NCBI RefSeq assembly: GCF_019038415.1 | Contig: NZ_JAFKRG010000009.1 | Coordinates: 1 to 64,000, forward strand | Direction: 5' to 3' | Origin: Synechococcus sp. CCY 9618 | GTDB taxonomy: Bacteria > Cyanobacteriota > Cyanobacteriia > PCC-6307 > Cyanobiaceae | Length of the DNA: 64,000 bases | Shown: in pieces, positions 1-54,801 of the stretch | Position numbering within the stretch: position 1 is the stretch's first letter | Layout of the letters: each line of letters opens with the position of its first letter | Program-made: the position numbers and the translations under genes | Notes under the pieces: generated by a model | Seen by the model: the letters and a program-made list of their open reading frames with translations, nothing else | Database searches by the model: none | What the model was told of the DNA's origin: nothing

Positions 1-126
1 CACATCATCCTCCATCTGCTGGTCCCAGTCCGTTGCGTCGAACGACTGGAACCAAGCCCGGAACTCGGCCCGCTTGGCCGGCGGCAGCTTCTGAACTTCA
101 GCCTCAATCTCTTCAAGGGTGCTCAT
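1..126 (-). CDS. Antitoxin-like small protein in integron cassette (C-terminus off window)
   Basis: The minus strand opens an ATG frame at 126 that stays open to the window edge (42 codons). It begins MSTLEEIEAEVQKLPP and contains a charged helix, PAKRAEFRAWFQSFD, then an acidic tract. This resembles the short helical addiction-module or stability-determinant antitoxins that precede RelE/ParE- or PIN-type toxins. That family assignment is recalled from the pattern, not searched. The gene begins 53 bases inside the second cassette, whose core GTTAGGC lies at 185-179. A toxin would be expected just left of the window edge. Confidence 0.6.
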   Translation of the reverse strand, partial: MSTLEEIEAEVQKLPPAKRAEFRAWFQSFDATDWDQQMEDDV

Positions 127-178
127 GAGTCCCATAATAGCTGAGTTCTCCGGCTGAGACGTGGCAACCACCTGATAG

Positions 179-266
179 GCCTAACGCTCAAGATCAGCGG
201 CGGGCAGTAGATGCATAGTTGAACACAAGATTCCAGTGTCCCGTCCGCTGCATCTTGGTGTTAGAT
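179..266 (-). other. attC recombination site of the Abi-alpha-like cassette
   Basis: On the minus strand R'' is ATCTAAC (266-260) and R' is GTTAGGC (185-179), matching RYYYAAC and GTTRRRY. Between them the arms CAAGATGCAGCGGACGGG and CCCGCCGCTGATCTTG pair with two extrahelical bases (G and A), which is the usual attC fold that sets strand choice. The loop is about 35 bases. The stop codon TAA of the upstream gene lies inside R''. The right half, 204-179, is identical over 26 bases to the right half of the attC at 52563-52588. Confidence 0.88.
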
Positions 267-1058
267 TTCGCCCTTGGAAGCTTCATTAGATTTCGACAGG
301 TCAGTCCGAATCATGGTGATCAGGCCTTCGAGACTTACAGAATATAGTACTGGCAGGTCAATGCCTGGAAAGTCACCAAAAGCTACGGAGCTAAATCTCC
401 TCCACTCACTCAGCTTGTTATGAGCGGCTGAATAAAGTAGTATTCCAAATACTGTCGGCTTGATCATCGTGTATGGCAATGCCGTCTCCGAGTCAAGCTG
501 GTGGTTATCCGTCTTATACTCAAAGAGCAGACCTTGTCTAAGCAGGATGTTTAAGTCGGTTTCAATCCGCAGATCAAGACGATCAACAAGCTCACGGGAG
601 GCAAGCCAAAGTGATTTTCTGTTGAGCTCGCTACTTTGCCCAACATTGATTGGCTGCTCTTCAGCTCCAAATTGAAGATTCAGGCAGTGGTAGAGAATAT
701 AGTGAAGTCTGAGCTGTCTGGAGGAGAGTGATTTTACGACGTCTACAAATTGAATTACATCATCATCCTTGCCATCAATGGATCGTGAGGATGCAAGCAG
801 ACCTCCGAAATATTCAGCACATACCTCGTCATCTGTGAAGGCACCATTCCACATCACGTCACGTGTAACCCTTCTATTTGCTTGCTTTCCATCATTCTCA
901 TCGGAAATCTTCCGATAGGCCGTGGCGATTAGCCTGTCACGTCCTTTGGCGTAAACCTTCTTTATGTCCTCGCCTACTTCGGACAGAACCGGTCCAAAGA
1001 CCTTTTGCAAAGCCCACTCACCTGGTAGAGCGATAGCAACATTCTTGTCTTCACGCAT
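261..1058 (-). CDS. Abi-alpha-like (DUF4393) protein, integron cassette gene
   Basis: This is a 265-residue soluble protein with no signal peptide. The middle section, with FTDDEVCAEYFGGLLASS (about residues 74-91) followed by DDDVIQFVDVVKSLSSRQLRL, resembles the conserved core of the Abi-alpha / DUF4393 family: a pattern of acidic residues, 'LLAS', and then a helix with 'LS'. Some members of that family are linked to abortive phage infection. It is the sole gene of its cassette: the ATG is 38 bases after the cassette core, and the TAA lies inside the attC. There is no clear Shine-Dalgarno, so expression may depend on read-through from intI. Its codon use is much more A+T-rich than the chromosome. 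The family call is moderate; the cassette status is firm. Confidence 0.6.
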   Translation of the reverse strand: MREDKNVAIALPGEWALQKVFGPVLSEVGEDIKKVYAKGRDRLIATAYRKISDENDGKQANRRVTRDVMWNGAFTDDEVCAEYFGGLLASSRSIDGKDDDVIQFVDVVKSLSSRQLRLHYILYHCLNLQFGAEEQPINVGQSSELNRKSLWLASRELVDRLDLRIETDLNILLRQGLLFEYKTDNHQLDSETALPYTMIKPTVFGILLYSAAHNKLSEWRRFSSVAFGDFPGIDLPVLYSVSLEGLITMIRTDLSKSNEASKGEI

Positions 1059-1095
1059 GATTATTCTGAGGTGTTGATGCTAATTCATGGAGTAA

Positions 1096-1271
1096 ATCTA
1101 ACGCTAATTGGACGGACCCTTTAAAACCTGTCCTACCGCGAGCCACAGCAGCTTAAGCCAGTTAAGGCATGGGTGTAGAAGACCTTGATCCACGGCCTGA
1201 CAAGCAATGCCGGTCTAATCCATTCACAGGTGCCAAGACTTAGGCGGACCCGTATAAGACTGTTGGGTAGG
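1096..1271 (-). other. attI-like region between intI stop and first cassette
   Basis: The 176 bases between the integrase stop and the first cassette hold no gene. The cassette-proximal end is GTTAGAT (minus strand, 1102-1096), a GTTRRRY core preceded by GTCCAATTAGC. In integrons, attI is where IntI inserts new cassettes. The integrase-proximal part (stop codon, ACCCAACA, TTAT, CCG) resembles the start of the equivalent region at 51802-51830 in locus 2, so the two were probably once the same element. The position is supported; IntI binding is inferred. Confidence 0.6.
1159..1180 (-). repeat. Short duplicated piece of the intI 3' end
   Basis: On the minus strand this reads TCTACACCCATGCCTTAACTGG. 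It nearly repeats the part of intI that encodes IYTHVLN around the nucleophilic tyrosine: 12 identical bases, one gap, then CCT(T/G)AACTG. It may be a trace of an older integrase copy next to attI, or a sequence matched by chance over a short span. Confidence 0.4.
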
Positions 1272-2243
1272 CTACAGCAAGTCGGCCGGACTGCTGACGC
1301 CCAGGGGCCCGCAGTTCAGGACATGGGTGTAGATCATGGTTGTCTGCACATCCTGATGCCCCAGCAGTTCCTGGATCGTGCGGATGTCCTGGCCCCGCTC
1401 CAGCAGGTGGGTGGCAAACGAATGGCGGAAGGTGTGCGGTGTCGCCGGCTTGTTGATCCCCGCCGCCAGCACCGCCCGCCGCACAGCCTTCTGGATCAGG
1501 CTGGGATCGAGATGGTGCCGTCCCTGCTCTCCGCTGGCTGGATCGCGCCAGCGTTGCCGCTGCGGAAACACCCACTGCCAGCCCCATTCCGCGGCAGCGT
1601 TGGGGTACTTCCTTGCCAGCGCATGGGGCAGCGACACCCGGCCGCAGCCCTCGGCAAGATCCTGACGATGCACCTCCCGCACCGCAACCAGGTGTGCCTG
1701 CAACCCCTGGCCCACACCGTTGGGAAGCAGGGTGCGGCGATCCTTGCCGCCCTTGCCGTCGCGCACCGTCAGCTCATGCCGGTGGAAGTCGAGATCATGC
1801 ACCCTCAGCCGGAGGGCTTCCATCAGCCGCAGGCCACTCCCGTAGAGCAACCCGGCCACCAGTCCCTCCACGCCGGCCAGCCGCTCCAGCACCGCCCTCA
1901 CCTCCTGGGGCGTCAGCGCCACCGGCAGCCGCCGCCTGGTCCGCGCCCGCACCAGATCCTCCAGCGCCAGGTCGTGCCCCAGCAGCTCCCTGTACAGAAA
2001 CAGCAGCGCCGCCAGCGCCTGGTTCTGGGTGGAGGCGCTCACCTTCCGCTCCACGGCCAGGTAACTCAGAAAGGCATTCACTTCGGTGCTTCCCATGGTC
2101 CGAGGGTGTCGCAGGCCGTGAAACCGCAGGAATCGCCGCAGCCACTGCTCGTAGGTGTTCACCGTGCGGCGGGCGTAATGGCGCACCTGCAGCTCCTCGC
2201 GGTAGCGCTGGATCAGGCCGGGGGCGTGGCTGGCGTCGGGCAT
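1272..2243 (-). CDS. intI: Integron integrase (tyrosine recombinase, IntI family)
   Basis: IntI recombines attC sites of gene cassettes with each other and with attI. The 323-residue protein has the N-terminal SAM-like core-binding domain (about 8-100) and the catalytic domain. The catalytic set is complete: R139 (GSGLRLMEA), K about 164-167, H270 and R273 (HTFRHS), H296 (LLGHQD) and nucleophile Y305 (MIYTHV). The IntI-specific insertion ([20 protein letters not shown], about 208-227) separates it from XerC/XerD. I chose the ATG at 2243 because the frame upstream runs into the divergent acetyltransferase and shows no homology, and because 323 residues fits IntI. It is transcribed towards the cassettes. 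Codon use matches the host, suggesting long residence. Confidence 0.93.
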
Positions 2244-2328
2244 GGCCTCGCTTGTAGGAGGGGTCTCCTCAGCCTTCCCCGCTGCAGCCTGTCCTCGGCG
2301 ATGGCGTGAGCCGCCACAGCAGAACCCG

Positions 2329-3222
2329 ATGCCTTCCTCCCTCACCATCCGCCGCCTGCAGAACGCCGACATCCCCACCGTGACCGGCTGGGCCCGGCAG
2401 GAGGGCTTCGCGCCGGGGGTGGGCGATGTGGCCATCTACCGCCAGACCGACCGCCAGGGGTTATGGGTGGGCTGGCTCGGCCGGGAGCCGGTGGGGTGCA
2501 TCGCCGGCGTGCGCTACAACGCCGCCTACGGTTTCATCGGCCTGTTCCTGGTGGTGCCCTCCCAGCGGGGCAGGGGCTACGGCCGGCAGCTGTGGCAGCA
2601 GGCGCTGGCCCACCTGGCCGACGTGCCCTGCATCGGCCTGGAGGCCGCCCCCGATCGGATCGCCGACTACGCCGGCTGGGGCTTCGAACCCGCTTCCACC
2701 ACCACCCGCTGGCAGCGGCCGGAGACCGCCGGCGGCCCGGCTCCCCCAGCCCCGCCACCGGCGCCGGCCGGGTCCACCTTCTGCCTGCTGGAGGGCAGGG
2801 CCATCCCGGCGGCGGCCGTGCAGCGCTTCGATGCCGAGCGGGAACCCTCGCCCCGGCCCCACTTCCTCCGCCCATGGCTGCGGCATCCGGCGGGAACGGT
2901 GCTGGCCCTGGTGGATCAAGAGGGCGCCTGCCGGGGCTTCGGCCGGGTGCGCCCGTGCCTCCTGCCCGACGGCGACGGCTGGCGCCTTGGCCCTCTGGTG
3001 GCCGACAGTCCCGCCGCCGTCCGGGCCCTGCTGGAGGGCCTGCTCCAGCGCCATCCCGGCACGGTGCTGATTGATGCCCCCGGCACCAATAGCCAGGCGG
3101 CCCAAGTGCTGGAGCCGCTGGGTTTCGTGCCCGTCTCCCGCACCCTGCGCATGTACCGGGGTCGAGCGCCGGCGGCGTCGCTGGAGGAGGTCTACGGCCT
3201 GGCCTGCCTGGAGCTGGGCTGA
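2329..3222 (+). CDS. GNAT-family N-acetyltransferase with two-domain architecture
   Basis: This 297-residue protein has an N-terminal GNAT fold: beta strands [15 protein letters not shown] and the acetyl-CoA loop [11 protein letters not shown] at about 81-91. The second half (about 160-290) resembles the YitH/HolE2-type C-terminal acetyltransferase domain ([28 protein letters not shown]). A Pro/Ala-rich linker joins the two halves. The substrate is unknown. The ATG at 2329 was chosen because the domain starts directly after it; an upstream ATG at 2242 would overlap the intI start. It is transcribed divergently from intI with 85 bases between them, so that gap must hold both promoters. Confidence 0.85.
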
Positions 3223-3253
3223 TCGCCCGCCAGCCCATACGCCGGCTTGAACC

Positions 3254-3778
3254 TCACTCGTTGACGACGGACGCCTTCACTTCCAGGGAGACGTTGCCGC
3301 ACCGGACAATCCGTCCCGTCGGGTTCGGCACCAGGCTGCCGACGACGAGCTGGGGGTCAGCGGGCCTGATCTGGCCGGTCTGGGTGTTCTGGCAGATGAT
3401 CGTGGTGATCTTCGGCGTCTGATTCGGGGTGAGGAAGGTGGCTCCGACGTAGGCGTTCAGGGTGCCGACCTTGGGCGACCGGGCCGGAATCACGTAGCTG
3501 TAGGCCGCCTGCCGGGTGGTCCGCACGGCGTAGTTGTAGCTGGCGGGCATGACGATGCCGAAATCCCGCTGAATGTCGGGAACGGTGGCGCGGAAGCGCC
3601 CGTATTTCTGGTAGTAGGTGCGCTGGGCCTCGGCCATCTTCGCCACCGCGTTGAGGGCGGCGGTCTGCTCGCGGCTGACCTCGTCACGGGCAGCAGCGGC
3701 CGTGCCGGGGATGAGCGAGAGGCCCGCCAGGAGCGCCGCTGGGAGAAGAGCCGATCGCAGCGTCGGACAGACCGTCAT
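3254..3778 (-). CDS. Exported type IV pilin-like G/H family protein
   Basis: The 174-residue protein has an N-terminal signal peptide (LLPAALLAGLSLIPGTAAAA) cleaved near residue 29. A helix, LNAVAKMAEAQRTYYQKYGRF, then leads to a NYAVRTTRQAAYSYVIP strand region. The pattern of a helix ending in YF/YY..GRF, then YNY and two distant cysteines (ICQNTQ, VRCGN), matches the pilin-like G/H proteins common in cyanobacteria. It lacks a normal prepilin peptidase motif at the N-terminus, so it is more likely a secreted or periplasmic relative than a structural pilin. It is convergent with the acetyltransferase upstream. Confidence 0.6.
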   Translation of the reverse strand: MTVCPTLRSALLPAALLAGLSLIPGTAAAARDEVSREQTAALNAVAKMAEAQRTYYQKYGRFRATVPDIQRDFGIVMPASYNYAVRTTRQAAYSYVIPARSPKVGTLNAYVGATFLTPNQTPKITTIICQNTQTGQIRPADPQLVVGSLVPNPTGRIVRCGNVSLEVKASVVNE

Positions 3779-3868
3779 GGGGAGTGGCTGGACTGGGCCC
3801 AGCCTCGCATCCGCAGCCGGGTTCGATGGGCATCAGACTCTCCGGCATCTTCGAGGCCTGCCTCAGCC

Positions 3869-4696
3869 ATGGCCGCATCGCCTGGCCGCCCTCCCACCCC
3901 CCGTTCCCCGGCTCGCCCACGGCCGGCCCCCGTGGCCGCTCTGGTGGCGTTGGCGGCCCTCGTCCTGGCGCCCCCCCTGGTGCTGCCGCCCCTGGTCGCC
4001 GCTCCAGTGGCCCCGGTCAACGCCATCCCCCTGAGCGGCCCTCCCGGCCAGAGCCTCCTGATCCAGAGCACTGCCCGGGCCGACTACGGGCCCCTTGCCG
4101 AGCAGTTCCTCACCCAGGCGAACCTGGCCTACTGCGGGGTGGCCAGTGCCGTGATGGTGCTCAACAGCCTGGGGGTACCGGCCCCGGCGGCGGACGGCTA
4201 CGGCTCCTACCGCTTCTGGACCCAGGAGAATTTTTTCGAGGCGGAGGCCGCCCGGCGGGTGATCAGCCCGGAGCTGGTGCGGCGTCAGGGCATGACCCTG
4301 GAGGAACTGGCCGGCCTGCTGACCAGCCATGGGCTGGTGGTGCAGCGGATCCACGGCGACCGGCTGAACCTGGAGGCCTTCCGCGCGCTGCTGCGCCGCA
4401 ACCTGGCCGAGGGGGGCGACCGGCTGCTGGTGAACTACGCCCGCCGCTCCCTGGGCCAGGCCGGCGGCGGCCACATCTCACCCCTGGCGGCCTACCACGC
4501 CCCCAGCGACCGGGTGCTGATCCTGGACGTGGCCCGCTACCGCTACCCCTCGGTGTGGGTGCCCGCCGCCGATCTCTGGCAGGCCATGCGCACCACCGAC
4601 ACCACCTCGGGCCGCAGCCGCGGCCTGGTCACGATCCGGAAGGCCCCGTCGCCGGCACCGCCGCCAGGAACCGCTCCGCCACCCGGTCCCAGCTGA
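3869..4696 (+). CDS. Phytochelatin-synthase-like papain-fold protease/transpeptidase
   Basis: This is a 275-residue protein with the phytochelatin synthase catalytic domain: Cys89 (LAYCGVASAVMVLNSLG), His202 (GGGHISPLAAY) and Asp220 (ILDVARYRYP) form the expected triad. Residues about 20-50 are a hydrophobic Ala/Leu/Val stretch that may export or anchor it. Bacterial and cyanobacterial members lack the eukaryotic C-terminal sensor domain, as here. They mainly remove glycine from glutathione and make little phytochelatin, so a role in thiol or metal homeostasis is inferred. Its 3' end overlaps the convergent glycosyltransferase gene by 68 bases. Confidence 0.85.
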   Translation: MAASPGRPPTPRSPARPRPAPVAALVALAALVLAPPLVLPPLVAAPVAPVNAIPLSGPPGQSLLIQSTARADYGPLAEQFLTQANLAYCGVASAVMVLNSLGVPAPAADGYGSYRFWTQENFFEAEAARRVISPELVRRQGMTLEELAGLLTSHGLVVQRIHGDRLNLEAFRALLRRNLAEGGDRLLVNYARRSLGQAGGGHISPLAAYHAPSDRVLILDVARYRYPSVWVPAADLWQAMRTTDTTSGRSRGLVTIRKAPSPAPPPGTAPPPGPS

Positions 4697-5711
4697 AGGG
4701 CTGCACGTGCTCACGGCCGAAGGCCCGGCAGCGGGCCTGAAGATCGGGGTCGCTGAGCAGTTTGTGAAGAGCACCCGCCAGGGCCGCCGGATCCCGGGGC
4801 GGCACCAGCAGCCCGGCCCGGCCATCGGGCACCACCTCGGGGATGGCGGTGGCGGTGGTGCTGACCACCGGCAGGCCGCTGGCCATGGCCTCAAGAAAGA
4901 CGATGCCGAAGCCCTCCTGGATCGACGGCAGACAGAAGATGGCGCTGCGGCGGTACCAGGCCCGCACCTCCCCGTCGTCGGCCAGGGCCCCCAGCAGCCG
5001 CACCGCAGCCCCCAGCTGCAGCCGCTCCACCAGCGCCTGCAGGGCCCCGTGCTCCGGCCCATCACCGATCACCACCAGCCGGGCGCTGGGGAGGCGATCC
5101 ACCACCTGGCGGAAGGCGCTGATCAGATCGGTCACCCGCTTGCGGGGGTACTGGCGGGCCACACACAGCACGGTGTGGGGCTCCCGGGCCCCGTCGTCGG
5201 CGCCGCCGGTCCACAGGGAGGGGTCGATGCCCTCCGGCACCAGCCGCAGCCGCTCGGCCGGCACCCCGTAGAGGGCCTCGATCCGCTCGCAGCAGTAGCG
5301 GCTGGTGGACAACACCCGCGGGGCCCGGCGGGCGTTGAGCCGCTCCAGCCGCGACAGGCCCCAGAGCATCAGCCGCGGCCAGCCGCGCTCGCACCGGGCC
5401 TCCTCGGCCAGCACCCCCTTGATGCAGCACACGTAGGGCACCGGACAGCGGTGCGCGACGCGGAAACCGTCGATGTCGAAGCCCACCACTAGGTCGTAGC
5501 GGCCCTCGGCGGTGGCCAGGCGCCGGGGCAGGCTGAGGTTGAACCAGAGGCGACGCAGCAGCAGGTTGCGGGGCCAGGCCCCCTGGGGCACCAGCCGCTC
5601 CACCTGGTGGCCCCGGGCCGCCAGGGCCGTCGCCAGCCCGCCGATGGCCGCCGCGGTGCCACTGCCCTCGGCCACGTCCTGCAGCCAGGAATCCAGAAAG
5701 GCGATGCGCAT
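4629..5711 (-). CDS. Family 4 glycosyltransferase
   Basis: This is a 360-residue GT-B fold enzyme. The N-terminal domain starts RIAFLDSWLQDVAEGSGTA. The C-terminal donor-binding half has LCVARQYPRKRV, VVIGDGPE and the GT4 signature EGFGIVFLEAMASGLPVV, in which two glutamates about eight residues apart contact the nucleotide sugar. It has no signal peptide and probably acts on the cytoplasmic face of the membrane in polysaccharide or glycolipid synthesis; donor and acceptor cannot be read from sequence. The start lies 16 bases beyond the purF stop on the same strand, so it may be co-transcribed with purL-purF. Confidence 0.88.
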   Translation of the reverse strand: MRIAFLDSWLQDVAEGSGTAAAIGGLATALAARGHQVERLVPQGAWPRNLLLRRLWFNLSLPRRLATAEGRYDLVVGFDIDGFRVAHRCPVPYVCCIKGVLAEEARCERGWPRLMLWGLSRLERLNARRAPRVLSTSRYCCERIEALYGVPAERLRLVPEGIDPSLWTGGADDGAREPHTVLCVARQYPRKRVTDLISAFRQVVDRLPSARLVVIGDGPEHGALQALVERLQLGAAVRLLGALADDGEVRAWYRRSAIFCLPSIQEGFGIVFLEAMASGLPVVSTTATAIPEVVPDGRAGLLVPPRDPAALAGALHKLLSDPDLQARCRAFGREHVQPFSWDRVAERFLAAVPATGPSGS

Positions 5712-5727
5712 GGGCAGGCCCCGGGGC

Positions 5728-7233
5728 CTACACCCGGGCCGCCAGGCCGGTGGGCTCGAGCATCAGCTTGCTGGAGCGCACCTCCTCGTCCATCTCGATC
5801 GGGTACACGCCGTCGAAACAGGCGGTGCAGAAGTGGCTGGACTCGGCATGGGCCGCTTCCACCATGCCCGCCTTGCTGAGGTAGGCGAGGGAATCCACGC
5901 CCAGATGGCGCTCGATCTCCTCGAGGGTGAGGCGGGCGGCGATCAGGTGGTCCTGGGTGTCGGTGTCGATGCCGTAGAAGCAGGGATGGGTCACCGGTGG
6001 GGAGCTGATCCGCATGTGCACCTCGGTGGCCCCCGCATCCCGCAGGGCGGCCACCAGCTTGCGGCTGGTGGTGCCGCGCACGATCGAATCGTCGATCACC
6101 ACCACCCGCTTGCCGGAGAGCACATCGGGCAGGGGGTTGAGCTTCACCCGGATGCCCGCCTCCCGCATCGCCTGGGTGGGCTGGATGAAGGTGCGGCCCA
6201 CATAGCGGTTCTTGATCAGGCCGTCGGCGAAGGGGATGCCGCTGGTGTGGGAATAGCCGATCGCTGCCGGGATGCCCGAGTCGGGCACGCCGATGACGAT
6301 GTCGGCTTCCACGGGGGTCTCACGGGCCAGCACCTCGCCGATGCGCACCCGGTAGCTGTAGAGGGATTCACCGAAGAAGCGGCTGTCGGGGCGCGCGAAG
6401 TAGATCATCTCGAACACGCACAGCTTCTCCGGCTGTTCGCTCCAGCGCTGGCGTTCAGGAATCGGATCGGCCTGGCGGAAGTGGATCAGTTCACCGGGCT
6501 GGACGTCATCGACGAAGCTGGCGCCGATGATGTCGAGGCCGCAGCTCTCGCTGCTGGCCACCCATTGGCCCTGCTCCGGTTCGCCCAGCAGGCCGAACAC
6601 CAGGGGCCGGATGCCGTGGCCATCGCGCAGGGCGAAGAGGCCGTCCGGGGTGCCGATCACCAGGCTGAAGGCGCCGCGGCAGCGGGCCGCGGCGGTGCGG
6701 ATCGCCGCGTTCCAGCCCAGGCCGGAATCCACCGCCTCCTGCAGGGCGAAGGCGATCAGCTCCGAATCGGTGGTGGAGGTGAACTCGCCGGCCAGGTGAT
6801 CCAGGGAGGCGCGCAGCTCCGTGGCGTTGACCAGGTTGCCGTTGTGGGCCAGCGCCAGCGGCCCCAGGCGGGTCATCAGCACCACCGGCTGGGCGTTGCA
6901 GACCTTGCTGCTGCCGGTGGTGGAATAACGGTTGTGGCCGATGGCCAGCTGGCCGGGCATGCGCTCCAGCACGTCCTGATCGAACACCTGGCTGACCAGG
7001 CCCATGTCCTTGTGAAGGCGCACCTTGGCGTCGTCGAAGACGGCGATGCCGGCCGACTCCTGCCCCCGGTGCTGGAGGGCATAGAGCCCGAAATAGGTGA
7101 GGTTGGCCACCGCCTGGCCCGGGGCCAGCACCGCGAAGACGCCGCAGGCCTCCTCGGGCTTGTCGGGGCGGTCGTGATCGATGCTGGCGGTGCTCAGGAC
7201 GCCGGGCTCATCGCAGGTGTCAGCGAGGGGCAC
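5728..7233 (-). CDS. purF: Amidophosphoribosyltransferase
   Basis: PurF commits PRPP to purine synthesis, making 5-phosphoribosylamine from PRPP and glutamine. This 501-residue protein has the class II glutamine amidotransferase domain, with the N-terminal nucleophile Cys30 (EACGVFAV) exposed after removal of a 29-residue propeptide. The C-terminal phosphoribosyltransferase domain has the PRPP loop VVVIDDSIVRGTTS. Cysteines near the C-terminus (HPCFYGID, FCTACFDG) fit the iron-sulfur type of PurF. It lies 37 bases downstream of purL on the same strand, forming a purine pair typical of the origin region in picocyanobacteria. Confidence 0.97.
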   Translation of the reverse strand: MPLADTCDEPGVLSTASIDHDRPDKPEEACGVFAVLAPGQAVANLTYFGLYALQHRGQESAGIAVFDDAKVRLHKDMGLVSQVFDQDVLERMPGQLAIGHNRYSTTGSSKVCNAQPVVLMTRLGPLALAHNGNLVNATELRASLDHLAGEFTSTTDSELIAFALQEAVDSGLGWNAAIRTAAARCRGAFSLVIGTPDGLFALRDGHGIRPLVFGLLGEPEQGQWVASSESCGLDIIGASFVDDVQPGELIHFRQADPIPERQRWSEQPEKLCVFEMIYFARPDSRFFGESLYSYRVRIGEVLARETPVEADIVIGVPDSGIPAAIGYSHTSGIPFADGLIKNRYVGRTFIQPTQAMREAGIRVKLNPLPDVLSGKRVVVIDDSIVRGTTSRKLVAALRDAGATEVHMRISSPPVTHPCFYGIDTDTQDHLIAARLTLEEIERHLGVDSLAYLSKAGMVEAAHAESSHFCTACFDGVYPIEMDEEVRSSKLMLEPTGLAARV

Positions 7234-7270
7234 GGGGCATCACACCATGGAAGAAGGTCATCCTCGCCCA

Positions 7271-9646
7271 TTACCTGTCCGGTGGGGGCGCGGCTTTCCG
7301 CAACCGGCCGGGGATCGCCTGCTCGTAGGTGTGGCGGAGTTGCTCCAGCTCCAGGGCCAGCAGGGACTGACCGGCCCGGCTCACGCTGAGACGGGAATCC
7401 GCCACCACGGTGCCCAGGAGCTGGGCCGGCAGCGGTTCGCCGGCGGCCGCCGCCGCCTCCAGGGCCTGGCGCCAGGCCGCCTCCTGTGCGGGCGCCACGC
7501 TCACCAGCAGCCGGGCGCCGCCCTCGGCGAACAGCAGCCGGTCGGGGCGGCCGGCGCCGGCAGGGAGCTCCAGATGGGCCCCAAGGCCGGAGGCGATGCA
7601 GGCTTCGGCCAGCGCCACCGCCAGACCGCCATCGGAGAGGTCGTGGGCGGAGCGCACCAGGCCGGCGGCAATGGCCTGGCGCAGGAACCCCTGCACCCGC
7701 CCTTCCAGGGCCAGATCCACCCGGGGCGGCCGGCCCGTGAGCCAGCCGTGGACCACCTCCAGGTAGCTGCTGCCCGCCAGCCCCAGCCGCTCGTCGCCGT
7801 TCTCCTCCAGGGGCACCCCCAGCAGCCACACCCCATCCCCGGGTGCCCGCCAGGCCAGACCGGTGACATGGGCCAGATCGTGCACCAGCCCCACCATGCC
7901 CACCACCGGGGTGGGATGGATCGGCTGCATGCGGCCGTCCGGCAGACGGGTCTCGTTGTAGAGGGAGACGTTGCCGCCGGTGACCGGCGTGGCCAGGGCG
8001 CTGCAGCCCTCCGACAGGCCCCGGCAGGCCATGGCCAGCTGCCAGTAGCCGGTGGGGGTGTCGGGGGAGGGAAAGTTGAGGTTGTCGGTGACCGCCAGAG
8101 GTTCGGCGCCGGTGCAGGAGAGGTTGCGGGCCGCTTCGGCCACCGCCGCCATGGCGCCGCGCTCAGGATCCAGGGCCACCCAGCGGTTGGGGCAGTCGAC
8201 CACCGCCGCCACGCCACGGGTCGCCGCCGCCATGGCCCCCGCCCCCTGCTGGGGCCGCAGCCGGATCACCGCCGCGTCGGCACCACCGGGCAGCACCACC
8301 GTGTTGGCCTGCACCTGGTGGTCGTACTGGCGGTAGACCCAGCGCTTGCTGGCGATGGTGGGGTCATCCAGCAGGCGCAGCAGCACCTCGCCCCAGCCCA
8401 GCACCCCCGCCGCCAGGGCCAGGCCCGCCCCATCGGCAGGCGGCAGCTGGTCTTCGCTCCAGTTCCAGTGCTCGCGGATGGCGGCCGGCGGCTCGGCCAG
8501 CAGCTCGTGGTGGTTCACAGGCGTGTCGTCCGCCAGGGCACTGGCGGGCACCTCGGCCGCCACCTGGCCGTGCTGCAGCACCCGCACCACGTTCTCCTGC
8601 AGCACCCGGCCCACCACCGCCGCCTGCAGGCCCCAGCGGCGGAAGCGGGCCATCAGGGGCTCCTCCCGGCCCGCCGCCACCACGAACAGCATCCGCTCCT
8701 GGGATTCCGACAGCAGAAATTCGTAAGCGCTCATCCCTGATTCCCGGGCAGGCACCCGGTCCAGGTCGAGTTCGATCCCCAGACCGCCCTTGGCCGCCAT
8801 CTCCGAGCAGCTGCAGGTGAGGCCGGCGGCGCCCATGTCCTGAGCCGCCAGCACGTCACCGCTCTGGAAGGCCTCCAGGCAGGCCTCGATCAGTCCTTTC
8901 TCCAGAAACGGATCCCCCACCTGGACCGCGGGCCGGTCGTCGAGGGAGGCCTCGGTGAGCTCGGCGCTGGCGAAGCTCGCCCCTCCCATGCCGTCCCGGC
9001 CGGTGGTGCTGCCCACATAGACCACCGGATTGCCCACCCCCACCGCCCCGGAGCAGACGATGTCGTCGGTCTCCATCAGGCCCAGGGCCATGGCATTCAC
9101 GAGGGGATTGCCGCCGTAGCTGGGATCGAAGGCCACCTCACCGCCGACGGTGGGCACGCCCACGCAGTTGCCGTAGTGGGCGATGCCGGCCACCACCCCC
9201 TCCATCAGACCCACGTTGCGCTGGTCCTCCAGGGGACCGAAGCGCAGGGCGTTGAGCAGGGCGATGGGGCGGGCCCCCATGGTGAAGATGTCCCGCAGGA
9301 TGCCCCCCACCCCGGTGGCGGCCCCCTGGAAGGGCTCCACGGCGGAGGGGTGGTTGTGGCTCTCGATCTTGAAGGCGAGGCGCTGGCCCTCACCGAGATC
9401 CACCACGCCGGCGTTCTCGCCGGGCCCCACCAGGATCCGGGCTCCGGTGATGGGGAAATTCCGCAGCAGGGGCCTGGAGTTGCGGTAGCAGCAGTGCTCC
9501 GACCACATCACGCCGAACATGCCCAGCTCGGCCCGGTTGGGGGCCCGGCCGAGACGGCGCACGATCTCGTCGTAATCGCCCTGGCTCAGGCCCTCCTTGC
9601 GCAGGGCCTCGGGTACCGAGAACGACGGGGTCGGGGCAGAAACCAC
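7271..9646 (-). CDS. purL: Phosphoribosylformylglycinamidine synthase, large subunit
   Basis: PurL converts FGAR to FGAM with ATP and glutamine-derived ammonia, together with PurQ and PurS. I take a GTG start at 9646, giving 791 residues, the normal length for the small PurL type. The open frame extends far upstream, but that part overlaps the PRC-barrel gene and shows no homology. Recognisable parts are [46 protein letters not shown] (the ATP-binding site), and the repeated half with [15 protein letters not shown]. It is followed by purF and preceded by the PRC-barrel gene on the same strand. Confidence 0.95.
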
Positions 9647-9674
9647 CGGAAGGCGCGGCAACGGCCCCCCAGTA

Positions 9675-10514
9675 TCAGATCCAGGGGTCGTCCTGGTCGT
9701 GGGGCTCCCGGCCCCGGTAGCGGTCGCGGCGGGGGGCCTGCGGCTCCGGTGGGGGCTCCTGCGGTGGCTCACCGATGTCCTCCTCGGGCCAGTCCTCGAG
9801 CGGATCGGGCCCCTCCTCCTGCGGCTCGTAACGGCCCCGGCGGTCTTCCCGGTCCGGGTCCCGGTCCCGCTCGAGCCAGGGGGCCTCGTCCTGGAACGCC
9901 TCCGGCCAGGGAGGTTCCTCAAGCCAGCCCTCCAGCCGCTCCTCGACGCGGCCGCCCACCTGCTGCACCTGCTCCCTCCAGCGGCGGGAGCGGCGCAGAA
10001 ACTGCTGCCGCACACTGGAGCGGGCCACCGGCAGATCGTCCAGTCCCTTCAGGGCGGTGAACACCCGTCCGGGCTGCTGGTCGACGATCCGCTCGGGGCT
10101 GAGCCGCCAGCGGCTGCTGCCCGGCAGCCGCGGATCGCTGCGGGCCACCAGGTAGTGGAGGATGCGGCCGCTGCGCAGCTCCACCGCCGCATCGGCCACC
10201 ACCCCCAGGGGGATGTCGTCGGTCCCGGTCAGGGCCGCGTCGATCAGGGTGGGCAGGCGTTCGAGGGTGGTCGCGTCGGTTTCGGCCGGCTCCCCCTTGA
10301 CGAACACCTCCTGCTCGCCGAGTCCCCGCAGCTGGTCGAGCCGCCAGACCAGCCGCCGCTGGGCGAAGGCCGAAGGGCGGCTGGCCCAGCCCAGCAGTCG
10401 GTGGACCGGCGGGTGCATCCAGGCCAGCACCCCGGCGCCCCGTTCGAGGCCCTGATCGCAGCGCACCTGCCGCCGCAGCAGATCGCTCAGCAGCAGCTGC
10501 TCGGGAAGGCTCAC
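9675..10514 (-). CDS. PRC-barrel domain protein
   Basis: This is a 279-residue soluble protein. Two beta-barrel-like stretches ([23 protein letters not shown] and [24 protein letters not shown]) look like PRC-barrel modules. The C-terminal 80 residues are Pro, Glu, Asp and Arg rich and probably disordered. The molecular function is unknown. The gene sits 4 bases from the dnaN stop and 28 bases before purL on the same strand, the order I recall for many picocyanobacteria, where it is a conserved hypothetical near the origin. Confidence 0.75.
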
Positions 10515-10518
10515 GACC

Positions 10519-11700
10519 TCAGCTGCTGCGGATCTGCACGGGCATCACCAGGTAGGTGAAGGGGTCATCCGCCTCCACCGGGGCGATCACGGCCGGGGTG
10601 GTGGGGGCGTTGCACTGCAGCACCACCCGGTCGGAGGCCATGGCCTTGAGGCCGTCGAGCAGATAACGGACATTGAAGGCGATCTCGATGGTCTCCCCCT
10701 CGATGACAGCCGCCAGGGATTCCGAGCCGCTGCCCACGTCCTGGGCGTCGGCCCGGATGGTCACCGTGCCGGGGGCGGGGTCGGCGCTGATCTTGACCAC
10801 GTTGTTGTGCTGGTCGGCCAGCACCGCCACCCGCTCGAGGGCAGCGATGAAGGCCCGGCGGTCGAGCACCAGGCGCCGGCTGAAGGAGGGGGGGATCAGC
10901 TGCCGGTAGTTGGGGTAGGTGCCGTCGAGGCTGCGGCTGGTCAGCACCTGATCGGCGGAGAGAACCACCACCTGGCCCCGCTCGCAGAACAGGCTCAGCG
11001 GCTCCTGGGAAGCGCGGCTGGAGAGGATCCGCTCCAGCTCCCGCAGGGACCGGGCCGGCACCGTGACGGAAAAGCCATCCAAGCCATCCCCTTCGGCTTC
11101 ACCGGCCTCCCCATCGGGGGTGGACCCGGATTCCACCGCGTGGGAGAGGCGCTGCACGGCCAGACGGTGGCCATCGGTGGCGGCGCACTCCAGACCCTCG
11201 CCGTCCAGGCGCAGGTGCACGCCGGTGAGGAGCTGCTTGTTCTCGTCCGGGCTGCTGGCGAACAGCGTGGCCCGCAGCCCCTTGACCAGGGCATCGGCAT
11301 GGAAACGGATCGGCGTGCCGCTCTGGCTCAGGGGCAGGTCGGGGAAGTCGTCGGCGGGCATGCCGCGCATGCGGTAACTGCCCGAGAGATTGGTGAGCTC
11401 CACCTGCTCCTCCCCCTCCGGACAGCTGAGGCTGATGGGGCTGTCGGTGGCCAGGCGAGCCACGATCTCGCCGAACATCTTCGCCGGCAGGGTGATCGCG
11501 CCGCTGGTCTCGACGGCGGCCGGCACGCTGGTCTGGATGCCGAGGCTGAGGTCGAAGCCGGTGAGGCTGAGTCGGCCGGTGCCCGCATCGGCGGTGAGCA
11601 GCACGTTGGCCAGAACCGGATGGGTGGGCCGGCTGGCCACCGCACGGCTGACGAGCTGGAGACTGGCGCTGAGTTCAGCCTGGGAGCAGACCAGCTTCAT
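10519..11700 (-). CDS. dnaN: DNA polymerase III sliding clamp (beta subunit)
   Basis: The beta clamp encircles DNA and tethers polymerase III. The 393-residue protein begins MKLVCSQAELSASLQLVSRAV and ends YLVMPVQIRS, the normal clamp end. It has the three repeated clamp domains (for example VLANVLLTADAGTGRLSLTGFDLSLGI, TGVHLRLDGEGLECAATDGHRLA). The ATG at 11700 was chosen because the upstream in-frame codons are Pro/Ala-rich with no clamp homology. It is the first gene of the dnaN-PRC-purL-purF run. In picocyanobacteria dnaN usually marks the replication origin. Confidence 0.97.
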   Translation of the reverse strand: MKLVCSQAELSASLQLVSRAVASRPTHPVLANVLLTADAGTGRLSLTGFDLSLGIQTSVPAAVETSGAITLPAKMFGEIVARLATDSPISLSCPEGEEQVELTNLSGSYRMRGMPADDFPDLPLSQSGTPIRFHADALVKGLRATLFASSPDENKQLLTGVHLRLDGEGLECAATDGHRLAVQRLSHAVESGSTPDGEAGEAEGDGLDGFSVTVPARSLRELERILSSRASQEPLSLFCERGQVVVLSADQVLTSRSLDGTYPNYRQLIPPSFSRRLVLDRRAFIAALERVAVLADQHNNVVKISADPAPGTVTIRADAQDVGSGSESLAAVIEGETIEIAFNVRYLLDGLKAMASDRVVLQCNAPTTPAVIAPVEADDPFTYLVMPVQIRSS

Positions 11701-12066
11701 GGCAGGTGCCGGGGATGCCGAGGCGGCGATCGGGAGGCCCCACGGTTTCACAGGGCGGGGTAAAGCGCAACGGGCGGGTCTCCCGACTGTTCAGAGGATC
11801 AAAAGGGTTTGTTGAAGGAAGAAAACAGCCCGTCGTCATAGGGGCGGGGGAAAACGGGTAAAGAGATCGACTTCCCTTGCCACCACAGGCATTCGTGGGA
11901 CGATCCGTTGGGGAAATGGCGGCGGAACGACACGCTTTGGAGTGGTTTTCCCCTGATTCCCGGGCCTGGGGAAACCGGCGGCCCGATGGGGGGCTTCCCG
12001 CTCCCCGTTCTCTCCAGGCCGTGAGGGAGGAATGCCCCAGGATTTCCCCAGACGCTTCCGCGACCG
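11701..12066. other. Gene-free region upstream of dnaN; candidate replication origin
   Basis: These 366 bases between dnaN and thrC contain no convincing gene. On both strands they hold five copies of a TTTCCCC motif: reverse at 11847-11855 (GGGGAAAAC), 11910-11917 and 11968-11975, and forward at 11946-11953 (TTTTCCCC) and 12042-12050 (ATTTCCCCA). Cyanobacterial DnaA boxes are of the TTTTCCACA type, so these could be degenerate boxes. An A+T-richer stretch (11797-11830) lies beside them. The dnaN promoter must also be here. Origin function is inferred from position and the repeats. Confidence 0.45.
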
Positions 12067-51300: not shown

Positions 51301-51804
51301 TCCGAACCGGCCCCAAGACCGATGGCCAGGTTGGGCGACGGCAGCAGAGTGTTGCCTTCGCGAGTGGGCGAAAAGCTCCAGTCCCATCTGGAGGAGGTAC
51401 GGCGTCTTCATCGCCAGGATCTTGCGGAGGCTATGGAGGGTGCGCCTTCCCCAAGCCTTGGGGAGTAAGTCCCCCAATCACCAGTGGAGTGGGGCTGGCA
51501 ATGGTTGTTTCCCCAACAGAACCGCTGGCAAGACCGGGCCTCAGGAACTCAGGGCCGCCACCACCTCGATCTGAGCCTGGTGCAGAAGGCCGTGAAACGG
51601 GCCGTGGCCGAGGCGCGCGTCACGAAGTCGGCCAGCTGCCATACATTTCGGCACTCCTTTGCGACTCACCTGCTGGAGCGGGGGCAGGACATCCGCACGA
51701 TTCAGGAACTCCTGGGCCATCAGGACCTGAGCACCACCATGATCTATACCCATGTGCTCAACCGAGGACCGCTTGGAGTTTGCAGCCCAGCGGACATTAT
51801 GTAG
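51301..51804 (+). pseudogene. intI: Decayed integron integrase, C-terminal part, with an in-frame stop
   Basis: The frame reads DGSRVLPSRVGEKLQSHL then RRLHRQDLAEAME, matching residues about 168-198 of the intact IntI (the conserved lysine, in DGKGGKDRR there, is not evident here), then a stop TAA at 51466-51468 where the intact copy has a Lys codon, then [52 protein letters not shown] and SPADIM. The N-terminal 165 residues, including the first catalytic Arg, are missing. The C-terminal end is very close to the intact IntI of locus 1. It is read towards the cassettes, as in locus 1. Confidence 0.9.
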
Positions 51805-51829
51805 CAGACCCAACAAGTGGTTATCGGAC

Positions 51830-51981
51830 CCGTGAACCATGGCCAAGTCTTCGGCGCTGGCGCTAAACTCCATTGCGACAACAGGTTCATCTCCTCCTGG
51901 CCCCTTGGTTTTAATTGTGGTTCACGGAAAGCGAGCACTCCCTCCCGTGGTTCACAGAAACCACCGAATAACAAGTTGGAC
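51830..51981 (+). other. attI-like region of integron 2 with direct and inverted repeats
   Basis: GTGGTTCACGGAAA (51917-51930) and GTGGTTCACAGAAA (51947-51960) are direct repeats 30 bases apart, close to the cassette junction core GTTGGAC (51975-51981). An inverted copy, CCGTGAACCA, lies at 51830-51839. attI sites of class 1 integrons also carry repeated integrase-binding sites in front of the core. Function as attI is inferred from position and this pattern. Nothing protein-coding is seen between 51805 and 52050. Confidence 0.5.
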
Positions 51982-52050
51982 CGACCTGTATGCGGTGCTC
52001 CTGTACCAATCCGTGGCTAAGCAGCTACAGTGCTTGAGGAGGTGACTTAG

Positions 52051-52266
52051 ATGTCTAGACAGTTTGATGTAGTAGTCGAGAAGGATTCAGAAGGGTTCTT
52101 CGTGGCGACAGTCCCTGCTCTACCCGGTTGCCATACTCAAGCCAAATCGCTTGATCAATTGATGGAGCGAATCAAGGAAGCCATTGAGCTTTGCCTTGAG
52201 GTTGCAGGCACTGACCCTGAGTCACTTGACTTTATAGGAGTACAGAGAGTTACGGTAGAAGTGTGA
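52051..52266 (+). CDS. hicB: HicB-family antitoxin, cassette 1
   Basis: This 71-residue protein has the HicB partial RNase H-like fold: FDVVVEKDSEGFFVATVPALPGCHTQAKSLDQLMERIKEAIELCLE. It has no DNA-binding tail, so it is the short type. A good ribosome-binding site (GAGGAGGT) precedes the ATG. It overlaps hicA as GTGA. The order hicB then hicA is one of the two known arrangements. It neutralises the HicA mRNA interferase. Confidence 0.9.
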   Translation: MSRQFDVVVEKDSEGFFVATVPALPGCHTQAKSLDQLMERIKEAIELCLEVAGTDPESLDFIGVQRVTVEV

Positions 52267-52487
52267 CGAGATATTCTGCGATTTCAGGAAAGAACCTGAT
52301 CGCTGCTCTGAGGCGCATTGGATTTGAGGAAATCAGGGTTAAAGGTAGCCATCGCTTCCTGAAGCACTCAGACGGAAGAACAACAGTTGTTCCCGTTCAC
52401 TCGAATGAAACTTTGGGGCCTGGCCTTTTGGCAAGCATCCTTCGTGATGTCAAGCTTACAAAAGCTGGATTGCAAGACCTTCTGTGA
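52263..52487 (+). CDS. hicA: HicA-family mRNA-interferase toxin, cassette 1
   Basis: This 74-residue protein has the dsRBD-like HicA fold with the catalytic His in VKGSHRFLKHSDGRTTVVPVH and a typical LGPGLLASILRD end. It starts with GTG inside the hicB stop. The stop is 15 bases before the attC R'' core, so the pair fills its cassette. Confidence 0.9.
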   Translation: MTRYSAISGKNLIAALRRIGFEEIRVKGSHRFLKHSDGRTTVVPVHSNETLGPGLLASILRDVKLTKAGLQDLL

Positions 52488-52501
52488 CGAACTCAACGGC
52501 T

Positions 52502-52588
52502 GTCCAACATCAAGATTCAGCGGGCGGGGCCAAAGATACCTGTTTAAAGCATTGGGCTACTTCCCGCCGCTGATCTTGAGCGTTAGGC
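52502..52588 (+). other. attC of the hicBA cassette
   Basis: R'' is GTCCAAC (52502-52508), the reverse complement of the cassette's opening core GTTGGAC at 51975. R' is GTTAGGC (52582-52588). The arms TCAAGATTCAGCGGGCGGG and CCCGCCGCTGATCTTGAG pair with two extrahelical bases (T, G). The right half (52563-52588) is identical to that of the locus 1 attC. Confidence 0.9.
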
Positions 52589-52631
52589 GTCACCCAAGCC
52601 CAGCGGCGAACCAGCAAAGCGATTTTCCGCG

Positions 52632-53243: not shown

Positions 53244-53244
53244 C

Positions 53245-53313
53245 GCCTAGCCAGCCAATGGAGCTGACGCCTCCGCGCTGCGCGCTTCGGCGCCGCTCAT
53301 CGGCGCGTTGGAC
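53245..53313 (+). other. attC of the GST cassette
   Basis: R'' is GCCTAGC (53245-53251), one base from the expected GCCTAAC, and R' is GTTGGAC (53307-53313). The arms CCAATGGAGCTGACGCC and GGCGCCGCTCATCGG pair with extrahelical G and A. At 69 bases it is the shortest attC here and has different arm sequence from attC 1, so this cassette had a separate origin. Confidence 0.78.
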
Positions 53314-53362
53314 AGGCCGAGTACCGGTTGCGTCTCCGTATCCCTGGGGATACAATGGTGGC

Positions 53363-53653
53363 ATGCTGGAGATTCGGGAGACTCCTGCCTATGCCGCATG
53401 GTTCAGTGGGCTGCGCGATCGCGCGGCAAAAGCCCGCATCGATATTCGAATCAGGCGTTTATCCCTGGGGAATCCAGGTGATGTCCGTCCAGTCGGAGAA
53501 GGTGTCTCTGAGCTTCGTATTCGTTATGGCCCTGGCTACCGGATCTATTTCATAAGCCAAGGCAACATGCTTATTGTTCTTCTCGCTGGTGGCGACAAAG
53601 GCTCTCAAGCGAAAGACATCCAGCATGCCCAAGATCTTGCCCGTAACCTTTAG
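53363..53653 (+). CDS. HigB-like addiction module killer protein, cassette 3
   Basis: This 96-residue basic protein of the RelE/HigB fold has MLEIRETPAYAAWFSGLRDRAAKARIDIRIRRLSLGNPG, ELRIRYGPGYRIYF and LLAGGDKGSQAKDIQHA, the pattern of the phage-derived Gp49-like addiction-module killers (TIGR02683 type). It is probably a ribosome-dependent mRNA interferase. The ATG at 53363 was chosen because residues before it are attC sequence. The antitoxin follows 9 bases later. A HIP1 site at 53415 hints at a cyanobacterial source. Confidence 0.85.
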   Translation: MLEIRETPAYAAWFSGLRDRAAKARIDIRIRRLSLGNPGDVRPVGEGVSELRIRYGPGYRIYFISQGNMLIVLLAGGDKGSQAKDIQHAQDLARNL

Positions 53654-53662
53654 GGAGAGCAA

Positions 53663-53971
53663 ATGACCAAAACCGAAACAACTGTCTGGGACCCAGCCAA
53701 TCATTTCACAAACAGTGAAGACATGGCAGCCTATCTTGAAGCCGCTCTGGAGGATGGAGATCCAAGGCTGGTGGCTGCTGCCTTGGGAGATATTGCTCGT
53801 GCCAAGGGCATGTCGCAGATAGCACGTGAAGCTGGACTGGGTCGGGAAAGCCTCTATAAGGCTCTCTCCTCAAGCGGGAATCCTGAACTGGCAACCGTGT
53901 TGAAGGTTATCTCTGCGCTCGGACTTCAACTGCATGCTACTCCTGCTGTTGAGGCGGAGACGGCTGTTTAA
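53663..53971 (+). CDS. HigA-like addiction module antidote, cassette 3
   Basis: This 102-residue protein has a short N-terminal toxin-binding part ([40 protein letters not shown]) and a helix-turn-helix (MSQIAREAGLGRESLYKALSSSGNPELATVLKVISALGLQL), as in the probable addiction-module antidotes of the HI1420 type (TIGR02684). It binds the toxin gene's promoter. The stop TAA lies in the attC R'' core. Confidence 0.85.
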   Translation: MTKTETTVWDPANHFTNSEDMAAYLEAALEDGDPRLVAAALGDIARAKGMSQIAREAGLGRESLYKALSSSGNPELATVLKVISALGLQLHATPAVEAETAV

Positions 53972-54054
53972 CAATGCCATACACCTGGGCCACCTCCAAA
54001 TGATTCTTTTCATCGCATGAAATCCTCGTGGCCAGGTGATGGCAAGCGTTATCC
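53966..54054 (+). other. attC of the higBA-like cassette
   Basis: R'' is GTTTAAC (53966-53972), which pairs with the cassette's core GTTGGAC by two G-T wobbles, and R' is GTTATCC (54048-54054), a variant that breaks strict GTTRRRY. The arms TGCCATACACCTGGGCCAC and GTGGCCAGGTGATGGCA pair over 17 bases with extrahelical bases A and G. Confidence 0.85.
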
Positions 54055-54115
54055 GTATCCAGCAAGGCGTTGACCGGAAGTGGCGCCTGGTACCGAGAGG
54101 CAGTACCATGCATGG

Positions 54116-54370: not shown

Positions 54371-54711
54371 CTCTCATGAATGTGGATGGCTACCACGCCA
54401 AAATTGAGTACGACGAGGAAACGGATCAGTTCCGCGGGGAAATTCTTGGGCTTTCTGGAGGAGCGGACTTCTATGGATCAAACCCTGATGAGCTTCGACG
54501 GGAGTTCAAAAAGTCATTGGACGTTTTTCTTGAGGTCTGCAAGCAGCAAGGAATCACTCCACGTAAGCAATTCTCAGGCAAGTTCAATCTTCGGATCCCG
54601 CCTGAGCTGCACGAGACATTGGCGATGACTGCGGAAGCACAGGGGAAGAGTCTCAATACGCTTGCCCAGGAAGCACTCCAAAGAAGTGTCACGGCATGGA
54701 GGAACGGCTGA
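54367..54711 (+). CDS. HicB-like antitoxin with RHH-type tail, cassette 4
   Basis: This 114-residue protein has a HicB-like N-terminal half (DGYHAKIEYDEETDQFRGEILGLSGGADFYGSNPDELRREFKKSLDVFLE) and an Arc/RHH DNA-binding tail (KFNLRIPPELHETLAMTAEAQGKSLNTLAQEAL). This is the long HicB type that autoregulates. The stop lies inside the attC. Confidence 0.85.
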   Translation: MTLMNVDGYHAKIEYDEETDQFRGEILGLSGGADFYGSNPDELRREFKKSLDVFLEVCKQQGITPRKQFSGKFNLRIPPELHETLAMTAEAQGKSLNTLAQEALQRSVTAWRNG

Positions 54712-54801
54712 CGAGCCCCTTGAGTGGACATGCCGTCTCCAACACCCCGCTTACGCTCTACACTTCTTGCCTGCCACTCTGGGGCAGCGGTCAAGTTCAG
54801 A
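54699..54801 (+). other. attC-like element of the hicAB-like cassette
   Basis: R'' is GAGGAAC (54699-54705) and R' is GTTCAGA (54795-54801). The arms pair in blocks: TGAC..GCCCC..GAGTGG with CCACTC..GGGGC..GTCA, with small bulges. The cores do not follow RYYYAAC and GTTRRRY strictly, so integrase use may be weak. The identification rests on the long stem and on the cores of the next cassette. Confidence 0.6.

Follow-up and report, generated by a model that had tools for sequence, protein, structure and literature searches.

The window analysed here, a stretch of 64,000 nucleotides that makes up bases 1-64000 of contig C9 (320,802 bases) in a genome of 2.93 Mb and 133 contigs, begins with an integron in which the integrase gene intI and its cassettes lie in the same direction. 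Judged from its sequence, this is very probably a reversed, sedentary chromosomal integron carried by an alpha-cyanobacterium, in which cassettes would be captured by IntI through attI and attC and whose layout would have descended with its IntI lineage; the integron is real and apparently working. We infer that the host fits an alpha-cyanobacterium of the Cyanobiaceae from a CsoSCA match in the genome (E 1.4e-55; none in 14 control genomes, Synechococcus elongatus included), alpha-carboxysomes being the mark of Cyanobiaceae and alpha-cyanobacteria, and from the IntI tree described below, which sets 'same class' genomes next to Nodosilinea and an uncultured cyanobacterium. Contamination was ruled out by the synteny of the 320 kb contig with congeners and by a genome contamination value of 0.35.

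The intI gene (1272..2243, minus strand; 323 aa) is intact according to its match to the NCBIfam model TIGR02249, its alignment to a solved integrase and its ratio of nonsynonymous to synonymous substitution (dN/dS). IntI scored 456.6 bits against TIGR02249 'integron integrase', whose cut-off is 265, and its best solved-structure match was the Vibrio cholerae integrase PDB 2a3v (E 7e-87). The R, K, H-x-x-R, H and Y positions, which we take to be the catalytic residues, align with 2a3v together with a stretch presumed to be specific to IntI, so that the additional IntI-specific domain expected of an integron integrase is present. Values of dN/dS between 0.12 and 0.25 against six relatives indicate purifying selection. 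An initial annotation made from the letters alone had described intI as complete with all catalytic residues and the IntI-specific patch, and both the profile and the structural alignment agree with it.

The first gene cassette downstream spans 185..1101 on the minus strand, 917 bp from crossover to crossover with the crossover points read from the sequence, and its gene (261..1058, minus strand) encodes a 265 aa protein that is weakly Abi_alpha-like (PF14337, E 3e-5, 24.5 bits, below the cut-off of 29) and gave no match in a PADLOC search. Its attC (179..266, minus strand, 88 bp) has R''=ATCTAAC and R'=GTTAGGC boxes, paired L''/L' arms of which the 5' one carries an extra base, and a variable loop, as attC sites of integrons do; class 1 attC sites likewise carry extrahelical bases. 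A motif scan of the 64 kb placed this site second (score 11) after another attC at 52502-52588 (score 12), the top score in ten mononucleotide shuffles of the window being 7. It scored 78 bits against a covariance model partly built from the site itself. The initial annotation's cassette with a pairing core and attC, downstream of intI on the same strand, is thus borne out by the sequence.

With 150 out of 2505 first-look candidates scored, covariance model R1 recovered 32 genomic attC at E <= 0.1: nine on contig C8, four each on C9, C11 and C45, three on C17, two each on C47 and C49, and single sites on C14, C20, C25 and C34. A direct covariance-model search of the window added a site at 53245-53313, and a 20-base pattern from the attC 3' end gave 14 matches with up to 3 mismatches versus 0 for a reversed control. 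An alignment of 27 of the 32 listed sites plus that of the window (A1) was reduced to 26 sites by removing two badly aligned ones (A2), its sites coming from the source genome and related genomes and its secondary structure being written by hand. In A2, built from seeds chosen for arm pairing, 96.0% of cells form standard pairs, a value equalled in 0 of 500 shuffles and falling to 30.6-40.2% after a slide of 1-3 columns, and 128 cells are changed on both sides against a shuffled mean of 47.6.

That the gene encodes instead a XerC/XerD-like recombinase lying beside chance inverted repeats is practically out of the question: the protein is a tyrosine recombinase and is matched by the XerC, XerD and XerA models, but each of them stays under its own cut-off, whereas TIGR02249 is far exceeded, the IntI-specific stretch is present, the genome holds 32 attC, and the motif scan reached 11 and 12 against 7 for the best shuffle. 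Profile scores rule out the Xer identity, and the motif scan together with the 20-base pattern and its reversed control rules out a chance inverted repeat as attC. The initial annotation had staked its claim on IntI not clustering with XerC/XerD; IntI lies over the TIGR02249 cut-off and in a clade of reversed integrases.

A candidate attI lies right behind the intI stop (1096..1259, minus strand), comprising an element A at about 1240-1256, an element C at about 1108-1124 and the core GTTAGAT at 1102-1096 with the crossover at 1102/1101, so that an attI with a G^TT core stands beside intI by sequence and by conserved position. We scanned 56 flanks behind intI stops, one of 57 being too short. 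The element TTNNCGGAYCCGNNNAA was matched at 9/12 or better near the stop in 52 of the 56 and at 8/12 or better further on in 49, and the two copies, A and C, are 130-135 bp apart in all 46 flanks where both pass; the element having first been seen by eye in the same alignment, its score is not independent but its spacing is. The second copy (C) adjoins the GTT core. Strict GTTRRRY occurs in 26 of 57 flanks, at 170-175 bp from the stop in 19 of them, and other flanks have GTT with an imperfect box. A further direct repeat, B, matches C at 9/12 or better in 19 of 44 loci, 34 bp before C in 15 of these 19; that of the window is weak (7/12). The left half of A resembles C within a locus, with 0 of 2000 permutations as high and relatedness uncontrolled, and the right half showed no locus-specific likeness to C (equalled in 537 of 2000 permutations). 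With congener G226, whose IntI is 96% identical, the local alignment of the window stops at 1091, 11 bases past the crossover and 5 past the core, as expected of an insertion point. Among 18 loci of the reversed IntI clade and its neighbours outside Cyanobiaceae, no pair of the element at Cyanobiaceae spacing was found; several of them have single matches of 9-10/12, the planctomycete locus L242 has two (10 and 9 of 12) that are 89 bp apart, and further repeats there were noted by visual inspection alone.

The reversed layout is the norm at scorable Cyanobiaceae loci and no rarity there. An intI over the cut-off was found in 60 of 300 Cyanobiaceae genomes (any match at E <= 0.001 in 128 of 300, a count that includes other recombinases, since all 14 control genomes match as well), and attC at E <= 1e-5 under strict filters in 61 of 201. 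Attachment sites were found at 41 of 55 Cyanobiaceae intI loci, and 130 of 130 attC lie downstream of intI and on its strand. This tally started from 165 model matches, of which the 10 weakest (4 of them faint other-strand echoes of sites already counted) were omitted; from the remaining 155, 21 in loci without intI and 4 of a relic array were set aside. The same-direction arrangement of intI and cassettes with attI behind intI, as in reverse integrons, is accordingly found in the window and, as the initial annotation had it, is real. Two Cyanobiaceae loci (L088, L052) have another intI-like stretch close to the first, which looks like repeated gain and loss of platforms.

Beyond this family, where matches were scored to E 0.05 and weaker other-strand echoes ignored, the layout is different. 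Among 386 genomes sampled across Cyanobacteriota, 23 had intI at E <= 1e-60, and all 13 loci of other cyanobacteria with an attC match (L152, L155, L157-L161, L163, L164, L166, L207, L241, L253) are canonical, with attC upstream on the opposite strand. At L166 a pair of intI pieces is present, both having separate attC upstream; the match at L163 is weak (24.0 bits); a match of opposite sense at L155:5185-5271 (15.2 bits, E 0.29) is weak and above the E limit; and no attC match was found at L153, L154, L156, L162 and L165. In L207 the integrase and its canonically placed attC are carried by a cyanobacterial plasmid, pB of Kovacikia minuta. In a broad contig scan, the best 80 of more than 590 intI candidates, scored by R1 and a second, broader covariance model, R2, comprised 10 reversed, 29 canonical and 41 without a match, some labels resting on weak matches. 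The 10 reversed are 5 Acidobacteriota, 3 Planctomycetota, 1 Gemmatimonadota and 1 Actinomycetota; a Gemmatirosa plasmid (L208) is also reversed. Viral contigs gave no sign of being a source of reversed integrons, as the 13 of 20 loci (L172-L191) with a match are all canonical, the more distant L192-L206 being left out.

We placed 124 IntI rows (29 reversed, 49 canonical, 46 unscored) in a tree, on which the layout label changes 2 times versus 23.7 when shuffled. One clade of 35 rows holds 28 reversed, 7 unscored and 0 canonical integrases; its support is moderate, with a value of 89 in the Shimodaira-Hasegawa-like approximate likelihood-ratio test (SH-aLRT) and of 78 in a second tree of 54 rows with 1 layout change. 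The IntI of the window belongs to this inverted sub-clade, which is delimited by scored loci and not by published reference sequences. Inside it the Cyanobiaceae (99) join (95) integrases of Actinomycetota, Desulfuromonas and a Treponema, a sister group in which only the actinomycetotal row L275 was scored for layout, and the scored members outside Cyanobiaceae (Acidobacteriota, Gemmatimonadota, Planctomycetota, Actinomycetota) are all reversed. The phylogeny with known orientations proposed by the initial annotation hence puts IntI in a reversed-layout clade that also holds Treponema. Most other cyanobacterial IntI lie elsewhere, in a group also holding Chloroflexota, and the unscored cyanobacterial L162 and L165 stand apart from both cyanobacterial groups. 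Forcing 18 cyanobacterial rows into one clade cost 56.4 log-likelihood units and was rejected by the approximately unbiased (AU) test (p-AU 0.0086). Based on the label changes on the trees and the AU test, the reversed layout most likely came with the IntI lineage, and cyanobacteria most likely obtained integrons at least twice.

By contrast, one could suppose that a canonical cyanobacterial integron had its intI flipped locally, such that the reversed layout arose within cyanobacteria. Other cyanobacterial families do carry canonical integrons, but the Cyanobiaceae IntI group with reversed IntI of Actinomycetota, Acidobacteriota and others, a single clade for the 18 cyanobacterial rows is rejected, and the attI at the 3' end of intI is conserved across Cyanobiaceae, which leaves such a flip very improbable. 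Tree and AU test together thus disfavour it.

C9 starts at window base 1, inside a second cassette (cassette X), and leftward extension of the contig, as the initial annotation had proposed, is therefore not simply possible. The start of cassette X (1..184, minus strand) carries a small frame (135-1) open at the contig end, and a second copy starts on C8. C8:1-178 is 99% identical to this start, and the first 188 bases of C8 match it at 187 of 188 positions with identity beginning at the attC crossover; around its start the duplicated cassette thus differs at one position in 188, and its ends fall exactly at crossovers. The opposite ends of C8 and C47 share their first 97 bases, most of an attC, with 98 of the first 101 positions identical, and diverge right after its GTT. 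From these matching contig ends we infer that, by the simplest path, the array would lead from C9 through cassette X to C8 and through cassette X again to C47, the three contigs holding 1 + 9 + 2 attC. The further attC on the end-matching C8 and C47 also answer the initial annotation's concern that none would be found leftward.

After its 2 attC, C47 carries the chromosomal far flank. This flank lies 10-23 kb from intI on one contig in six congeners (G090, G175, G198, G217, G226, G286), whereas G250 has it on a separate contig from intI and G062 away from intI. Seven congeneric loci have the near flank in common, which consists of a GNAT acetyltransferase gene and its further neighbours. Both flanks being common to congeners (near flank at 7 congeneric loci, far flank in 6 of 8 congeners), the integron occupies a fixed locus as a sedentary chromosomal integron does, and the plasmid or transposon setting of mobile integrons of class 1-3 does not apply to a 320 kb contig syntenic with congeners. 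Between both flanks in the six congeners, R2 gave 32 rows: 31 are attC that share the strand of intI, and the remaining row is a weak opposite-strand echo of a stronger attC match. At the same locus the first cassettes of congeners differ and no cassette DNA is shared.

Window 1091-2280 has 93% DNA identity to G226 although the flanking genes have about 86%, and about 78-81% identity to other congeners at the same locus (L063, L097 and five more were compared). The intI-region identity to G226 above that of the flanks suggests that the integron platform was exchanged in place. Some 650-700 bp lie between intI and the GNAT gene in L063 (8247-9000), L080, L093, L094, L095 and L103; in L063 this stretch, read by eye, holds a PIN-type toxin and a Phd-like antitoxin. 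Neither the window nor L097 has it. Upstream of intI, palindromically arranged TGTACA repeats occur in at least 4 of these loci.

Several observations weigh against reading the locus as a reversed integron inherited with its IntI lineage. Two of five covariation measures for attC fail to exceed shuffles, double-change pairs and further pair types in A2 being matched by 62 and 159 of 500 shuffles, and the choice of seeds inflates the pairing figures, which are support and no independent proof. Attachment sites are missing from the tally at 14 of the 55 Cyanobiaceae loci: ten of these end within about 1.7 kb of intI, one is the relic array of the window, whose four attC also sit downstream on the same strand, and L056, L078 and L089 have an intact intI with about 9 kb behind it and no attC by R1 or R2, being either empty platforms or carriers of diverged attC. 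The reversed planctomycete L242 falls outside the reversed clade in the 124-row tree; both IntI trees are quick searches with only moderate support for that clade, and the 54 rows and the AU group were picked after the first tree had been seen. Of two more intI copies in the genome, the first is a broken fragment and the second leaves profile positions 1-37 unmatched, indicating that integron decay is common in this genome. Finally, C8 with cassette X could be a circle or be located elsewhere as an alternative to the contig path.

Our proposal for the working of the platform draws on known integrons. IntI, transcribed leftwards, would act on attI about 18-175 bp beyond its own stop codon, binding the repeated attI boxes and the folded bottom-strand attC of a circular cassette and joining the two at G^TT (1102/1101); cassettes would be transcribed either by read-through from intI or from a promoter that lies within this gene or close behind it. 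Much of the cargo (toxin-antitoxin, nuclease-like and ATPase genes) may serve self-maintenance or conflict with phages and plasmids. The reversed platform would stem from one IntI lineage that entered Cyanobiaceae apart from the canonical integrons of other cyanobacteria. That the platform is functional is only indirectly supported, by the intact residues, dN/dS, the crossover-exact ends of the duplicated cassette and the unshared cassettes in congeners.

We considered that the platform might be intact in sequence but dead, with IntI unexpressed or attI inactive and the array a relic. One intI fragment of the same genome does contain a stop codon, the window lacks the stretch that several congeners have upstream of intI, and a scan of 1-2600, which has little power and leaves other promoter types uncovered, gave no sigma-70-like promoter. 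Against this stand the purifying selection on intI, the fact that close relatives have no cassette DNA in common at this locus, and the duplication of a cassette whose copies differ once in 188 bases and have exact ends, so we regard a dead platform as unlikely. No enrichment of a LexA/SOS box, using a cyanobacterial motif, was seen upstream of intI in 54 loci (mean best 8.31 vs 8.61 shuffled), and an Rfam search of window 1-12000 gave three matches only, all far under gathering scores.

As to cassette expression, the platform may have no cassette promoter, and transcription may come only by read-through from the intI promoter, which would couple capture to expression. Both genes are on the same strand with 213 bp from the intI stop to the cassette open reading frame and no terminator-like site found between them (the lone same-strand site, 2019-2005, falls within intI, and shuffled sequence yields at least as many), and in the part of a 53-flank alignment inspected by eye there was no conserved block behind the stop except the attI elements. 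However, the promoter scan has the limits given above, a Pc promoter was tested at the platform of related oral Treponema integrons, and many toxin-antitoxin cassettes are described as carrying their own promoters (PMC6557892). Expression by read-through only is therefore possible but the less favoured option. More speculative still, reversed integrons could be a distinct type, with an extended nucleoprotein attI (A, B and C, about 160 bp) and cassettes on the intI transcript, serving as a standard gene-capture device of many Cyanobiaceae picocyanobacteria; if so, integrase production, cassette capture and cassette expression would be coupled in them.

Toxin-antitoxin genes are usual integron cargo. 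The cassettes of C8 encode an Mrr-type endonuclease-like protein, a DUF5677 protein, a Gp49/HI1420-type pair, a T5orf172 protein, a PIN7 protein, a DUF4062 protein (under the Pfam cut-off; PADLOC candidate PDC-S60, E 2e-28), an AAA protein with a TOPRIM match (best PADLOC match AriA, E 3.5e-25, among 137 families) and one protein without a Pfam match. The window also holds a decayed second integron (51349-54792, plus strand) in which a broken intI is followed by four attC, again in reversed layout. Its intI fragment (51349..51798) has an in-frame TAA and scores 190.9 bits against TIGR02249, below the cut-off. The attC, all on the plus strand and found by the covariance model, follow a HicB/HicA cassette (52502..52588, found also by the motif scan), a glutathione S-transferase cassette at 52632-53243 (53245..53313), a cassette with a Gp49-like protein just below the cut-off and an HI1420-type antidote (53966..54054), and a second HicA/HicB cassette (54706..54792). 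The intI copy that is unmatched at profile positions 1-37 (L048, G000:C14:2695-3486) is followed on its own strand by an attC.

Picocyanobacteria are major aquatic primary producers, and integrons are best known from clinical and Vibrio genomes. The presence of intI in 60 of 300 and of attC in 61 of 201 genomes of the sample makes the integron ordinary equipment in Cyanobiaceae, with toxin-antitoxin and defence-like cargo, and the clean layout split on the IntI tree allows the effect of intI direction on cassette expression to be asked. In the open-licence literature, as covered by top-ranked titles and abstracts, we found no report of a family-wide reversed layout in picocyanobacteria, of its conserved repeat attI or of two cyanobacterial integron origins.

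The kind of integron is already known, since reverse integrons and a Synechococcus IntI near that of Treponema have been published. T. denticola, A. baumannii, C. phaeobacteroides and B. marina are listed as having 'reverse' integrons (PMC6557892), and typical Spirochaetota IntI are generally reverse-oriented (PMC9668308); the initial annotation's statement that the same-direction layout has been described for a few lineages, such as Treponema, accords with both. Archaeal attI lie immediately downstream of intI (PMC9668308), Cyanobacteria are reported to hold integrons (PMC8618304), and an older tree includes a Synechococcus IntI (PMC3108266). The reverse integron of Treponema denticola and other treponemes resembles that of the window in that a Treponema IntI is in the sister group of Cyanobiaceae IntI, and differs in belonging to another phylum; at the Treponema locus L264 no attC was found by R2 at E <= 0.05, and its intI flank has one match (10/12) to the Cyanobiaceae attI element with no second copy at the family spacing. 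Treponema IntI have been found to cluster with those of Synechococcus sp., Kuenenia stuttgartiensis, Chlorobium phaeobacteroides and Blastopirellula marina (PMC3607928); this Synechococcus sp. IntI is probably of the same lineage as ours, and the available account of it describes no layout, attI, attC array or family spread. Canonical integrons from elsewhere among the cyanobacteria, such as L241 of Nodosilinea and L207 on plasmid pB of Kovacikia minuta, share IntI, attC and the phylum with the window, but their attC are upstream on the opposite strand and their IntI, 51-58% identical to that of the window, lie elsewhere in the tree. Class 1 integrons have a divergent intI and a short attI. 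Their attI1 carries direct repeats that the two pre-core repeats of the Cyanobiaceae resemble, and element A close to the intI stop is not known to have a counterpart in attI1. The IntI of the class 1 mobile integron is about 54% identical to that of the window, and it is plasmid-carried, whereas the window integron sits at a fixed chromosomal locus.

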